Origin: Streptomyces sp. BV286
GTDB taxonomy: Bacteria; Actinomycetota; Actinomycetes; Streptomycetales; Streptomycetaceae
DNA: 64,000 nt
Assembly (NCBI RefSeq): GCF_019090165.1
Contig: NZ_JAHRIB010000206.1
Span: 1 to 64,000, forward strand
Direction: 5' to 3'
Positions 6,851 to 14,447 of this stretch are shown in pieces. A program made the position numbers and the translations under genes. The notes beneath the pieces are model-generated. The model was not told the origin of the DNA. It ran no database searches and was given only the letters and a program-made list of their open reading frames with translations. The first letter of the stretch is position 1, and every line of letters begins with the position of its first letter.

Positions 6851-8197
6851 GTGCCTGCCGACGCATCATCCCTGATCCCGCCTGCCCTTGACCAGCTACG
6901 CGAGCATCCCGAGGTCGTATTGGCCGAGGTGCCGCGCCTGCTGGAGCGGCTGGCCGAGGTGCCCGACCCACGAGACCCACGCGGCGTACGGCACGCTCTG
7001 GTTGCCGTGCTCGCGCTGACCGCGTGCGCAGTTCTGGCGGGGGCGACTTCTGTGCTGGCAGTCAGCGAGTGGATCGCCGATGCCCCGCCGCACATCCTTC
7101 AACGCCTCGGCATACGCCTCGATCCACTATTCCCGAAGCGGTTCCTGCCTGCGGAAACGACGATCCGGCGGCTACTGGCCCGCCTCGATGGCGACGCGCT
7201 GGACCGGGCGGTCGGACGCTGGCTCGCCCACCGCCGCCCGAAGGCGACCGGGCTGCGCGGCCTCGCGGTGGACGGCAAAAGCCTGCGTGGCGCGGCAAAA
7301 GCGAACGGCCGCAAGGTCCACCTGCTTGCCGCACTGGAGCACACCACCGGCCTGGTCCTGGCCCAGATGGACGTCGGCGAGAAGACGAACGAGATCACCT
7401 GCTTCAACCCGCTGCTGGACACCGTCGCCGACCTGGCAGGAACCGTCGTCACCAGCGACGCCATGCACACCCAGCGCGAACACGCTGACTACCTCCTCGG
7501 CCGGGGCGCCCACTACATCGTGATAGTCAAAGGCAACCACAAGAAGCTGCGCCGACAGCTCAAGTCCCTTCCCTGGAAGGTCATCCCGCTTCAAGGACGC
7601 ACCAAGGGCGTCGGCCACGACCGCTCGGAAATCCGCCGGATCAAGGCCGCCACTGTCAACAGCCTCCTCTTCCCCGGAGCCCGACAGGCCGCCCAGATCA
7701 AGCGCCGGCGCACCGACCGCAAGACCGGCAAGACCACCGTCAAGACCGTCTACGCCGTCACCAGCCTGACCGCCGAGCAGACCAGCCCGTCCCAGCCCGC
7801 CCAACTCGTCCGCGACCACTGGAAGATCGAGGCCCTGCACCACGTCCGCGACACCACCTTCGCCGAGGACGCCTCCCAGCTGCGGACCGGCAACGCACCC
7901 CGCGCGATGGCCACCTGGCGCAACCTCGCCATCGGAGCCCTACGCACGGCCGGAGTGAAGAACATCGCGGCCGGCCTCCGCCGCTACGCCCGCGACCCTC
8001 GCCGCCCCCCTCGCACTCCTCGGCCTCGGGTGATCACGAACCGAATGTCATGCAACTGCGCCGAAGCCCCCTGGGGCTTACGTGACCACGGCACGGCATC
8101 CCACCGGGGACTCTGCCCACCGGCCTACTCGCCTGGCGGAACTCGAACGAAGCCCTCGGTCCAATCGTCCTCATCGAGCTCGCAGGCGTCGAAGTAG
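6851..8197 (+). CDS. ISAs1-family transposase with a frameshifted C-terminus
   Basis: The DDE transposase of the ISAs1 (H-repeat) family: [16 protein letters not shown] near the start, then [31 protein letters not shown], and [18 protein letters not shown] carrying the final Glu. The protein matches the family up to [10 protein letters not shown] at about 8003. There a run of six C shifts the frame; one C fewer would give LALLGLG and a stop at 8031-8033, the normal end. As given, translation continues about 55 residues into unrelated sequence to 8197, overlapping the next gene on the other strand. Starts at GTG 6851. Confidence 0.82.
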
Positions 8198-9723: not shown

Positions 9724-10113
9724 GGGGTCCGGTCAGAGGGCAGGTCCAGCCTGCTGCTCGCCTCCAACGGCGCAGTCCTCGCCGGGCTCACCTCGCTCAC
9801 CGACCGCCAACTGCCCGCCGTCACGCAGGCCTTCGGCGCAGCCGGCGTCCTCGCCCTGGCCGCCGCTTCCGTGCTGCTGCTCCTGGTCGTCCGGCCCCGT
9901 ATCGGCGGCAGTGACCGGGCCTCGTTCCCGTACTGGGCACGCCTGACCGAAGCCGAGATCCGCGCGTGCATGCACGGCGACACCCGTGCCGCCCGTATCC
10001 GGGTCCTGTCCCAGATCGCCCTCGGCAAGTACCGCTACCTCCGGCGTGCGGTGGATCTGATCCTGGCGGCCCTGGTTCTGCTACTTCTGGCCGCGATCGG
10101 CGCCCTGGCCTGA
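9724..10113 (+). pseudogene. Pycsar effector (DUF5706 membrane protein) lacking its N-terminus
   Basis: The frame reads SLLLASNGAVLAGLTSL, a hydrophobic helix ALAAASVLLLLVVRPRIGG, a loop containing FPYWARLTEAEIRACMH, and a closing helix LILAALVLLLLAAIGALA before TGA. That is the body of the PycTM-like effector family (anti-phage membrane effectors gated by cyclic UMP or CMP), which normally begins with a helix ending in DxKAS followed by LLLAFNGA. Here the DxKA stretch and any start codon are missing: the frame opens directly after TGA at 9721-9723 and the first usable GTG is at 9871. No nucleotide-cyclase gene is nearby. Confidence 0.68.
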
Positions 10114-10725: not shown

Positions 10726-10739
10726 CCACCTCGACGGAA

Positions 10740-10770
10740 GGGCCCGCCAGCGAGACGAGCTGACGGGCCC
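10740..10770. terminator. Bidirectional hairpin between convergent genes
   Basis: GGGCCCGCCAGC at 10740-10751 pairs with GCTGACGGGCCC at 10759-10770 with a single mismatch and a 7-nt loop. It sits exactly between the end of the plus-strand gene (10725) and the end of the minus-strand peptide gene (10795), the expected place for a shared terminator. Confidence 0.7.
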
Positions 10771-10794
10771 CGACGCAATCGATCTAGCGGTCCA

Positions 10795-10911
10795 CTACTT
10801 CGGTACGTGGCCGCAGCAGGCGACTGTTTCGGTGTGGTCGGCGCTGGCAAGCGGTACTACCGCGAGTACCGCTGCGAGTGCTACGAACAAGCCGAGTACG
10901 GCTTTGCGCAT
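10795..10911 (-). CDS. Small secreted Cys-Cys peptide precursor, copy B
   Basis: A 38-residue open frame: MRKAVLGLFVALAAVL, then AVVPLASA, then DHTETVACCGHVPK. It has the three parts of a Sec signal peptide (Arg-Lys, 16-residue hydrophobic core, Ala-Ser-Ala cleavage site), predicting a 14-residue mature peptide with adjacent cysteines and two histidines. GGAGG precedes the ATG by 8 nt. It is 33 of 38 residues identical to copy A, 74 bp upstream in the same direction. Within the predicted mature part only one residue differs, while two codons differ silently, which argues for a translated, conserved product. Function unknown. Confidence 0.68.
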   Translation of the reverse strand: MRKAVLGLFVALAAVLAVVPLASADHTETVACCGHVPK

Positions 10912-10985
10912 TGCTTGTCCTCCGGTGTTTGACGGAATCCTGTGCGCGCAGTGGCGGTCTGGTTGCACAGGAGTGTGGGATCCCG

Positions 10986-11102
10986 CTACTTCGGGTTATG
11001 GCCGCAGCAGGCGACGGTTTCGGTGTGGTCGGCGCTGGTGAGCGGTGCTGCTGCGAGTACTGCCGCGAGTGCTACGAACAAGCCGAGCAGGGCTTTGCGC
11101 AT
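10986..11102 (-). CDS. Small secreted Cys-Cys peptide precursor, copy A
   Basis: A 38-residue open frame: MRKALLGLFVALAAVL, AAAPLTSA, then DHTETVACCGHNPK. AGGAGG lies 7 nt upstream of the ATG, an ideal spacing. The architecture is that of a signal peptide followed by a very short mature peptide with a Cys-Cys-Gly-His core. Another ATG 5 nt upstream is out of frame and gives only 10 codons. It is transcriptionally upstream of copy B, and the pair ends at the hairpin at 10740. I recognise no family. Alternatives are a peptide signal, a metal-binding peptide, or a bacteriocin-like precursor; nothing nearby decides between them. Confidence 0.68.
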   Translation of the reverse strand: MRKALLGLFVALAAVLAAAPLTSADHTETVACCGHNPK

Positions 11103-11193
11103 TGCATGTCCTCCTGCGTTTGCCGGAAATTCGGTGCCGCTTGAGCGGTCACTGGTTCATACGCGCGAGATAGCGGCCCGGTTGCACAGGAGT

Positions 11194-12010: not shown

Positions 12011-12232
12011 CTACATGTAGATGGGGGACAGAATCCAGGCGAGGAAGCCGAGCACGCCGACTGCGACGACGAGCATGAAGTAGAAGTCGCTGTCTGGGTG
12101 CTTGGGGCGGATGGTGATGCGGTGGGTGCTGTCGCGGGTGGCTTCTCCGCCGGACCAGCCCCAGCCGCTGTCGCCGTCGTGGCCGCAGTCTGCGCTGCCG
12201 TTGTCCGGGCCGTGGCCGCATCCGTGTGGCAT
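12011..12232 (-). CDS. Small membrane protein with a Cys/His-rich N-terminus
   Basis: 73 residues from ATG at 12230-12232, with GGAGGGGG a few bases upstream. The N-terminus MPHGCGHGPDNGSADCGHDG is rich in His, Cys and Asp. The middle THRITIRPKHPDSDFYF is followed by one transmembrane helix MLVVAVGVLGFLAWIL ending just before the stop. It has the look of a conserved single-pass protein with a metal-binding-like cytoplasmic or extracellular tail. No family name is certain. Upstream lies the RHS fragment; downstream is gene-poor. Confidence 0.6.
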   Translation of the reverse strand: MPHGCGHGPDNGSADCGHDGDSGWGWSGGEATRDSTHRITIRPKHPDSDFYFMLVVAVGVLGFLAWILSPIYM

Positions 12233-12298
12233 GAAGTCCCCCTCCATCAAGTCCGACGTCCTGACGGTAGCGGGCTTTGCAGGAGTGGAAGAGGCATT

Positions 12299-12840
12299 GC
12301 GGCCGATTCACAGTCGGTCTCGTTGCCCGGCGTGGTGCCCGAGCCCATGGCGTCGGTGGCGGTGTCGATGTTGTGGTTCGCGTCGAACTTCGTGGACCGC
12401 TTGTGGGTCAGCGCGTCCGTCACCTCGGACACCCCGCCGTCGGCGTTGTGCTTGTACGAGGTGCTGTGGGACTCGGGGTCGGTTGCCTTCGTCGTGCCCG
12501 CGGCGGAAGGCGCGGTGGTGTCGTAGTGGTAGGTCCAGGTGGGGCCGGTGTGGACGGAGCCGTTGAACTCGGTGGCGCGCAGCATGGAGGTGACGCGGTT
12601 GGCGTCGTCGTAGGTGAAGGCGGTGACGCGCCCTTCGGCGGTGGTGATCTTGTTGATCCGGCCGGAGGAGTCGTGGCCGAAGGCGGTGGGCTTGCCCTCG
12701 GTGTCGGTGGTCTTGGCCAGGTTGCCGGACGGGTCGAGGTCGAAGACGGCGGTGCGGCCGGTGTGGTCCTTGGCCTGCCACTGCGAGGCGTCGGTCTTCA
12801 GCAGGTCGACCGACCGGCCGGAGCGGGTCTCGCCGGGGCA
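12299..12840 (-). pseudogene. RHS/YD-repeat protein fragment
   Basis: The minus strand encodes successive YD-type repeats: GRTAVFDLDPSGNLAKTTD, EGKPTAFGHDSSGRINKITT, AEGRVTAFTYDDANRVTSM, and a later KRSTKFDANHNIDTATDAMG. These belong to the repeat barrel of RHS proteins, which carry polymorphic toxins. The fragment has neither the N-terminal domains nor a toxin tip: it opens immediately after the tap stop codon and ends in unrelated sequence after NETDC. Confidence 0.72.
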
Positions 12841-12851
12841 GCCAGCCGGCG

Positions 12852-14447
12852 CTAGGAGGTGCCCTCGGAGGGCTCCGCGCAGGTGCTGGGACCGGTGCCG
12901 ACGGTGTAGACGTCCTTGACCTTCACTTCGGTGACGCCGCGGCCTTCGGAGAACACCGCGCGCCAGTCGCCGGTGACGTGGAGTTCGTCGGTGCCCATCG
13001 CACGGACCACCATCAGGCCGTCGTCGTAGGCGCGGTGGGCCTTCCACCACAGGTTCGCGAAGGCCTGGGAGCGGATCAGGTGCATCCAGTCGGTGCGGTA
13101 GAGCTCCCGGTTGTAGTTCGACTCCCCCAGCGTGGAGACGAACTTGGAGTACATCGCCTTCACGTACTCCAGTGTCACCTCGTCGCCCTCGGCGATCGCC
13201 CGGTCCCGGGCGTCCTTCAACGCGATGCGGAACTTCTCCAGCAGGCCCTCCGTGGCACCCGACGTCCACGACTCGTGGATCTCAGGCGGGTCGCACAGCC
13301 CGTACTTCGGGCCGGACAGGCGCAGCAGCAGGCGCAGGGTGGGTTCGGTGACCCACAGGGGGCCCGGCTCGTCGCGGTTGCCGACCGGGTTCGGCAGCAC
13401 CGCCTCGTGCTCCCACACGGGCGGGGTGATCAGGTGTAGGCCGGCGCGGCGCCGGTCGTGATGGTTGCCGGTGGTGTGTTCGAGCTGGCCGAGCGGCAGG
13501 TGGGTCTTGAGGGCGGACAGGTAGGCGCCGTTGATGTCGAGGGCGGTCACCTCGTGCCGGCCCGTGGGCAGGTGGGGGCGCGTCCATTTCGGGCGGGCCT
13601 CCCAGACGTGGTCAGCGCCGCGGGCACTTTGCTTGCGCAGGATGTCGGGCAGCCACGGGTGGGCGACGACGTCGTAGCGGCCGCCCCTGCGGGTGTGGTC
13701 CAGCAGTGCCATCGCGTCCGGGATCGCCCGCTTCACCAACGCGGCGGTCGCTGCTTCGACGTCACCGGTGTGGCCGGCGAGTGCGGCCGTGACTGCCGCG
13801 CCGATCAGATCCGGGGTCTCGGAGGCCGTCTGCGCCCGGCGGCCCACCGGCATCACCTTCACGCCAGGCACCCTGCCCGGCTGCACGGCAGGCAGCGGCT
13901 TCCCGACGGACGGCGGCTGCTCGGCGGGCGGCGGCTGCTGTGGTCCGGCCGGTGGTACGGGCTGCGGTGGCTGCGCGGGGCCGGCCGTGCCGCACTCGGC
14001 CAGGTCCAGGTGCTGCGGGAATCCCTCCACCTGGTGCCGGGCGGGCTGTCCGCACAGCACGCACGGCTGCGGGTCGGCCAGGACGTCGTCCTCACCGTCG
14101 GCGGCGTGGGGAGCGGCGCTCTGTCCGGCTTCCGCCGGCTCGCCGTCCCCTGGCTCGCCGCCTCCGAGCTCACTGCCGGCGGTCGCGTCGGCGGCCTCGG
14201 CCTCGGCGGCGAGTTTCGTGCGGGCTCCCTCAAGGAAGTAGGCGTATTTCTCCCGTACTTCACCGCCGGGGTCCCGCCCTGTCTCCCAGCCCCCGATGGT
14301 GGACGGGCCCACCCCCAGAGCCTGCGCGAGCTGGGCCCGCGACAGATGCAGCCCTTCACGCAGGGAGCGCCGCTCGGCGGCGGGCGGCAGCGGGACTTCC
14401 TGCCTGGCTGCGGCGAGCAGGGCGTCGATCGCGCCGAAGTCGGTCAT
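12852..14447 (-). CDS. tap: Telomere-associated protein Tap-like, with polymerase-B-like motifs
   Basis: 531 residues. Residues 34-58 are an XRE helix-turn-helix (LSRAQLAQALGVGPSTIGGW). Residues 129-152 carry a Cys-x2-Cys...His...Cys finger. After a Pro/Gln-rich linker, the C-terminal half has DINGAYLSAL (304 on), KAMYSKFVSTLGE (430 on) and MGTDELHVTG (484 on). The HTH and C-terminal sequence are what I know as Streptomyces Tap, which binds the telomeric 3' overhang and recruits terminal protein. I recall Tap as roughly 740 residues, so this copy may be shortened; its stop abuts the RHS scar and no tpg follows. It shares an ATGA overlap with the XRE gene upstream. Confidence 0.72.
   Translation of the reverse strand: MTDFGAIDALLAAARQEVPLPPAAERRSLREGLHLSRAQLAQALGVGPSTIGGWETGRDPGGEVREKYAYFLEGARTKLAAEAEAADATAGSELGGGEPGDGEPAEAGQSAAPHAADGEDDVLADPQPCVLCGQPARHQVEGFPQHLDLAECGTAGPAQPPQPVPPAGPQQPPPAEQPPSVGKPLPAVQPGRVPGVKVMPVGRRAQTASETPDLIGAAVTAALAGHTGDVEAATAALVKRAIPDAMALLDHTRRGGRYDVVAHPWLPDILRKQSARGADHVWEARPKWTRPHLPTGRHEVTALDINGAYLSALKTHLPLGQLEHTTGNHHDRRRAGLHLITPPVWEHEAVLPNPVGNRDEPGPLWVTEPTLRLLLRLSGPKYGLCDPPEIHESWTSGATEGLLEKFRIALKDARDRAIAEGDEVTLEYVKAMYSKFVSTLGESNYNRELYRTDWMHLIRSQAFANLWWKAHRAYDDGLMVVRAMGTDELHVTGDWRAVFSEGRGVTEVKVKDVYTVGTGPSTCAEPSEGTS

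Follow-up and report, generated by a model that had tools for sequence, protein, structure and literature searches.

A Streptomyces family of tandem micropeptide genes with an invariant Ala-Cys-Cys-Gly motif, predicted export, and a candidate sigma-E-type promoter before some members

Among the small proteins that Streptomyces secretes by the Sec pathway, the chaplins contain cysteine and occur in several copies per genome. Conotoxins keep a leader and a cysteine frame while the product changes, and upstream ORFs acting as cysteine attenuators are known from mycobacteria. The micropeptide family analyzed here resembles the chaplins in its predicted Sec signal, shortness, multiple copies, and cysteine content, while it differs from them in having no Pfam match, a much shorter mature part, and adjacent rather than spaced cysteines. 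As in conotoxins, the leader and cysteine frame are kept while the flanks vary and tandem copies arise and decay, and the presence of the leader on an SH3-like secreted protein may also be likened to conotoxin-type families. However, this family is bacterial, possesses one Cys pair, and carries a tail without clear positive selection. In S. coelicolor, the LCP (LytR-CpsA-Psr) gene sco5358 is among the sigma-E targets, with the predicted promoter TGCAACC...CGTCTG, and many targets in the rows of the promoter table used here are membrane or secreted proteins, as the peptide would be if exported (PMC6767563).

The window, a stretch of 64,000 nucleotides from Streptomyces sp. BV286, carries two tandem genes of 38 codons plus TAG on the minus strand, as the initial annotation had claimed, and both are delimited by sequence, ORF list, and family alignment. 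Copy A (10986..11102) encodes MRKALLGLFVALAAVLAAAPLTSADHTETVACCGHNPK, and copy B (10795..10911), read from the ATG at 10911, encodes MRKAVLGLFVALAAVLAVVPLASADHTETVACCGHVPK. The ORF tool gave a longer version of copy B (10795-10968) from a GTG; since this GTG precedes the ribosome site and the ATG fits the relatives, the ATG at 10911 is the preferred start. The good ribosome-binding sites described earlier are found as AGGAGG for copy A (11110..11115) and GGAGG for copy B (10919..10923), and a similar string lies within 16 bases of the start in all 45 intact family copies. Residues 1-24 constitute the putative signal peptide in copy A (11102-11031, with cleavage predicted from the A-x-A pattern) as well as in copy B (10911-10840), which would leave the mature peptides DHTETVACCGHNPK (11030-10989) and DHTETVACCGHVPK (10839-10798). 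The two products are nearly identical; their mature parts differ at one position (N/V), and the silent differences ACC/ACA and CAT/CAC between the copies are present, both as previously stated. The common upstream 14-mer ACTCCTGTGCAACC was also recovered, before copy A (11180..11193, containing the -35-like TGCAACC) and before copy B (10961..10974); these two exact occurrences are the only ones in the window with up to one mismatch allowed, against a chance expectation of 0.02. The tandem micropeptide genes are real and are members of an unnamed Streptomyces family.

The two-gene unit is followed by a terminator-type hairpin of 13 pairs (10739..10771, minus strand), which reached a z of -3.21 when 60 bases were folded, with none of 200 shuffles as stable, and which a scan for T-run terminators did not pick up. 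In 18 of 32 units, this motif also lies downstream of the last or single copy, and a consensus fold of 16 of these 18 sequences (leaving out L041 and L051, whose stem or loop is altered) retained 13 pairs, one of them with changes on both sides. Upstream, where 18 regions chosen by eye among the 32 first-copy units were aligned, a 5' UTR hairpin GTG-a-CCGC-tcaa-GCGG-CAC (11134..11152, minus strand) is weakly supported (z -0.31); its pairs are visible in several units, and among the folds of seven units only that of L050 was notable (z -2.49; others -0.79 to 0.27).

Homologues were found in other Streptomyces genomes, including one detected by a single-sequence search (E 1.2e-16), and the own genome possesses two further copies, also in tandem, on another contig. 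A 38-member profile (E <= 0.001) was positive in at least 14 of 392 sampled Streptomyces genomes, and the order-wide profile search in at least 17 of 391 genomes, all in one of ten genera; the two samples overlap, and the counts are lower bounds because the best 19 candidates per genome were scored. The best E-value was at most 1e-20 in 12 of the 14 positive genomes and 2.6e-20 and 5.8e-12 in the remaining two, values that are partly circular as several matched sequences had helped to build the profile. In a sample of relatives (61 genomes, 14 genera), only the own genome was positive. A second genome collection yielded 18 loci in 15 strains, all Streptomyces, comprising S. antibioticus (four loci, and at least 13 profile matches in the order-wide search), S. 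scabiei 87.22, S. stelliscabiei, S. turgidiscabies, S. tauricus, S. spinoverrucosus, S. phaeoluteigriseus, S. fructofermentans, S. resistomycificus, S. apricus, S. lacrimifluminis, S. graminilatus, and three other strains. To date, the family is known from a few percent of Streptomyces species only. Its loci are often near chromosome ends: on contigs over 8 Mb, some of which are perhaps not whole chromosomes, seven of the 12 loci are no farther than 2.5% from an end (binomial p 5e-7 for uniform placement), a cut-off set after the positions had been seen. This count took strong, intact matches only, leaving out G067, G499, the second places of G296 and G615, and one of G109.

The claim that no named family is concerned agrees with the database searches. 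Two sequences each gave no match in Pfam and NCBIfam up to E 10, two gave none in PADLOC up to E 1, and the matches in PHROGs (best E 0.081) and, by profile search, in PDB (best E 0.18) were weak only. Rfam gave one match near the peptide genes, far below the gathering score, and literature searches at title level returned no paper title pointing to the family. Genes of such shortness are easily overlooked by annotation, and no family model was found. A mobile-element origin was considered and rejected, as no peptide-family match occurred in plasmids and phages (E <= 1) or in viral contigs. A wider leader superfamily was rejected as well, because the 13 weak-match loci that were translated appeared by eye to be unrelated signal peptides or chance frames.

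Constraint was computed over 45 intact copies, every protein sequence of which is different. Truncated, frameshifted, or fused copies (L067/L072, L074, L079, L080, L091, L063 at 113 and 229, L090 at 1366, and the SH3 fusions L045/L063, L072/L067, and L078) were excluded, together with places of the order-wide search not fetched as loci. Pre-peptides are 38-44 residues long, with a mature part of 14-19 residues (mostly 16, in 29 of 45) that follows the consensus D-Q/H-T-x-T-V-A-C-C-G-x-x-P-tail, and each copy has exactly two cysteines. Ala-Cys-Cys-Gly is invariant in all 45 copies (pN 0), with silent variation at the codons for Cys, Cys, and Gly (pS 0.50, 0.38, and 0.52, respectively). This invariance is not an artefact of the search, since a whole-profile search would find copies lacking CCG and did find fused and broken ones. 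Pooled dN/dS was 0.17 in the signal peptide, 0.04 in TVACCG, and 0.99 in the tail; the pairwise comparisons are not independent, given the common ancestry of the copies and possible conversion between tandem ones. CCGxxP is found in 39 copies, and otherwise the tail residues drift at the silent rate. The selection on the product that had been suggested for the window is borne out by the pN of 0 in ACCG, the silent codon variation, and the dN/dS of 0.04 in TVACCG. DHTETVACCGH, which had been put forward as the core, is present in the window copies but is a local variant, the family core being TVACCGxxP. The proposed Cys-Cys-x-His site for copper or zinc fared worse and is unsupported, because His follows CCG in only four of the 45 copies; the second mature residue is His in six and usually Gln.

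Close tandem pairs agree in leader and head but not in the tail, where silent changes are frequent too, and some tail types recur in different species. These patterns suggest tail turnover, with diversifying selection not proven. Broken copies are common and coexist with intact ones, which indicates that the family is dispensable. The outcome that would have refuted the initial annotation, an absence of homologues or their breakage at a neutral rate, was not observed, as homologues exist and ACCG has a pN of 0 in the intact copies. A birth-and-death family amplified by tandem duplication is the best reading of these comparisons.

The copies show a positive N-terminus and a hydrophobic core (both by eye), followed by small residues at -3 and -1, as expected of a Sec signal cut by signal peptidase I. 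Across the 45 copies, position -3 is nearly fixed (pN 0.044), -1 is constrained (pN 0.108), and -2 is free (pN 0.377). A-x-A occurs in 38 copies, Val, Thr, or Ser stands at -1 in five, and the few insertions before the cleavage site preserve ASA|DQ or AGA|DK. This -3/-1 pattern is probably the footprint of signal peptidase I, which would place the mature N-terminus at D, G, or N, so the secreted peptide with a signal-peptidase site predicted by the initial annotation gains support from the wider family. Export of the peptide is strongly suggested, and an exported micropeptide is the reading that best accounts at once for the leader pattern, the invariance of the head, and the freedom of the tail. 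A lipoprotein was rejected, as neither of two lipobox patterns, [LVI][ASTVI][GAS]C and a PROSITE-like one, matched any of the 45 copies. Tat export was also rejected, since even a loose RRxhh pattern matches only six of them.

An ECF-type promoter candidate of the sigma-E form, TGCAACC-N16-CGTATG, precedes copy A (11158..11186, minus strand; PMC6767563). Among the 32 first-copy units, TRCAACC lies at -79 to -84 in 11, and the full TRCAACC-N16-CRTNTG was found in four. These four, the window unit and three others, fit the promoter form of sco5358, whereas the remaining 28 units lack the full motif and the sigma-E regulon rows used here name no such peptide (PMC6767563). We also scored the units with a matrix made from 57 rows of the published promoter table, almost every one of which has AAC in its -35 element; since the matrix omits rows with other -35 letters and a few more, it is stricter than the full table (PMC6767563). 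Eight of the 32 units, the window unit among them, fell in the top 5% of shuffles and the other 24 below; for the window unit, seven of 200 shuffles scored as well. Three of the eight top matches (L038 at 10001, L046, and L014) are away from the conserved TRCAACC position.

In the own genome, TRCAACC-N16-CRTNTG occurs at four places, of which two belong to the two peptide units, the third is 92 bases before the start of an LCP gene, and the fourth belongs to a protein whose signal peptide was recognized by eye and which has no Pfam match. In six other genomes, there were 13 places; five precede an LCP relative and two a peptide unit, and the remaining four of these six genomes had no peptide unit with the full motif. 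Over all seven genomes, the motif precedes an LCP gene in six and a peptide unit in three. The total of 17 sites stands against 18 for the reversed control, so the promoter argument rests on the positions of the sites, and those before peptide units are circular because the pattern was derived from these units. By family-level likeness, the LCP genes preceded by the motif would correspond to a published type of sigma-E target (PMC6767563). We infer an ECF (sigma-E-type) promoter class, for which a BldN-type promoter may be an alternative. The site positions lend weak to moderate support to sigma-E-type regulation of part of the family, and envelope-stress control appears to be the best lead to the function of this part.

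Given the homology, constraint, and unit anatomy shown by computation, the reading that we prefer, with a probability of about 0.45, is an exported Cys-Cys stress peptide that is ECF-driven in part of the family and whose dose is raised by tandem duplication. Each locus would be transcribed as a unit of its own, with one to three tandem genes that each give a Sec-exported pre-peptide from which signal peptidase I may cut off about 24 residues to release the 14-19-residue peptide. The neighbouring cysteines are presumed to be the working part, most likely through an extracellular vicinal or dimer-linking disulfide, or else as a thiol ligand, while the tail might serve as a spacer of nearly free sequence; the chemistry and target of the Cys-Cys head are conjecture. 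An ECF (sigma-E-type, envelope-stress) promoter would drive part of the family, including the window unit, which is why we read the product as an extracytoplasmic stress peptide. Its dose could be increased by tandem duplication, often in unstable chromosome arms. A narrower version is doubtful as a whole, namely that an unmodified, Sec-secreted peptide of 14-19 residues is induced by envelope stress and works by way of a vicinal Cys-Cys disulfide, either on the cell surface or on neighbours, its copy number being tuned in the arms. If true, the family would represent a new class of secreted peptides for stress or communication in Streptomyces, and induction by envelope stress would link sigma-E-type control to a secreted peptide. 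With its invariant CCG core, free tail, and own terminator, the peptide is directly synthesisable for assay.

Other readings were weighed against the neighbourhoods of 19 loci, which were compared over flanks of up to 10 kb (the first 25 kb in the case of the window) using proteins that have high GC3 and a length of 50 residues or more. No such protein is common to most of the 19, and a conserved operon partner of this size was rejected on these grounds; the largest common groups are LysR-type proteins (by eye) in four, ABC-like proteins in three, and a third group in three. A linked receptor is thereby made less likely and so, with less force, is a linked immunity gene, since such genes can be shorter than this. 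A secreted pheromone whose variable tail confers specificity towards a distant receptor would account for an exported, short, multicopy, and patchily distributed peptide, as well as for close tandem copies with the same head and different tails. It is nevertheless unlikely, as no candidate receptor of at least 50 residues is common to most neighbourhoods, the tail pN/pS near 1 and frequent silent tail changes show no clear diversifying selection, and some tail types recur across species. Similarly improbable is a small Sec-secreted antimicrobial (bacteriocin) active via its Cys-Cys disulfide. A secreted, Cys-containing peptide in accessory regions would suit it, as would the ABC-transporter-like proteins of three neighbourhoods, window included, and the secreted I36-type peptidase inhibitor that follows one relative; yet the ABC pair of the window is more than 6 kb from the peptide genes, the three ABC loci were grouped by general family similarity only, no neighbour of at least 50 residues recurs at most loci, and by eye the mature peptide has no clear cationic or amphipathic character.

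The lack of a common neighbour of at least 50 residues also bears on the remaining readings. Vicinal cysteines invariant in 45 of 45 copies could bind copper, zinc, or a soft metal, but a third conserved ligand is absent, His is not conserved, and no neighbour of this size is common to most of the 19 loci, so that we consider metal binding quite unlikely. A RiPP precursor with modification enzymes encoded elsewhere is more improbable still: conserved leader, conserved two-Cys core, and variable tail would fit, whereas the leader looks like a Sec signal carrying the signal-peptidase pattern and no candidate modification enzyme is common to most of the 19 neighbourhoods, distant enzymes being possible. 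A regulatory cysteine attenuator would likewise have neighbouring Cys codons towards the end of its short ORF, but no downstream gene of at least 50 residues is conserved, 18 of 32 units have the terminator motif close behind the ORF, and the signal-peptidase site is under strong selection; this reading was rejected as very unlikely.

Downstream genes were inspected in seven of the 14 units without the terminator motif. In three of them (L052, L070, and L015), a protein with a signal peptide (by eye) comes next on the same strand, being an I36 peptidase inhibitor in L070 and without a match in L015. In L052 (S. scabiei 87.22), where the peptide gene is single, a signal-peptide protein made of two similar halves and with a weak SH3_3 match begins 157 bases after the peptide start. 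No signal-peptide protein was seen downstream in the other four, of which L053 is followed by an apparent transposase. An SH3-like protein with the peptide-family leader occurs about 400-700 bases on in L045 and in L021/L067, the peptide copy of the latter being broken. As the downstream partners differ, no common function was drawn from them. The Pfam scan outside the window covered three downstream proteins and one SH3-like protein.

The secreted SH3-like proteins, which have about 153-157 residues, carry the leader and 5' region of the peptide family at L045 from 960 (plus strand; identical to L063), L072 from 1501 (plus strand), and L078 from 1593 (minus strand). They were recognized as SH3-like by eye, with no Pfam match above the cut-off, and what comes after the leader still looks like the peptide head, minus the Cys pair, as though these genes had captured the beginning of a peptide gene. 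SH3-like homologues were also found on four Streptomyces plasmids, one at full length and three without the leader part.

Finally, other genes were observed in the window. A DDE transposase is encoded at 6851-8197 (plus strand), and a short ORF at 9871-10113 (plus strand) matches PycTM (Pycsar effector) from profile position 26, apparently lacking its N-terminal part. A 79-residue protein at 12011-12250 (minus strand) has an N-terminal part rich in His, Cys, Gly, and Asp, a hydrophobic C-terminus, and no Pfam match, and an ORF with RHS repeats at 12247-14447 (minus strand) overlaps an HTH protein. The region with the RHS, HTH, and transposase genes looks rearranged.
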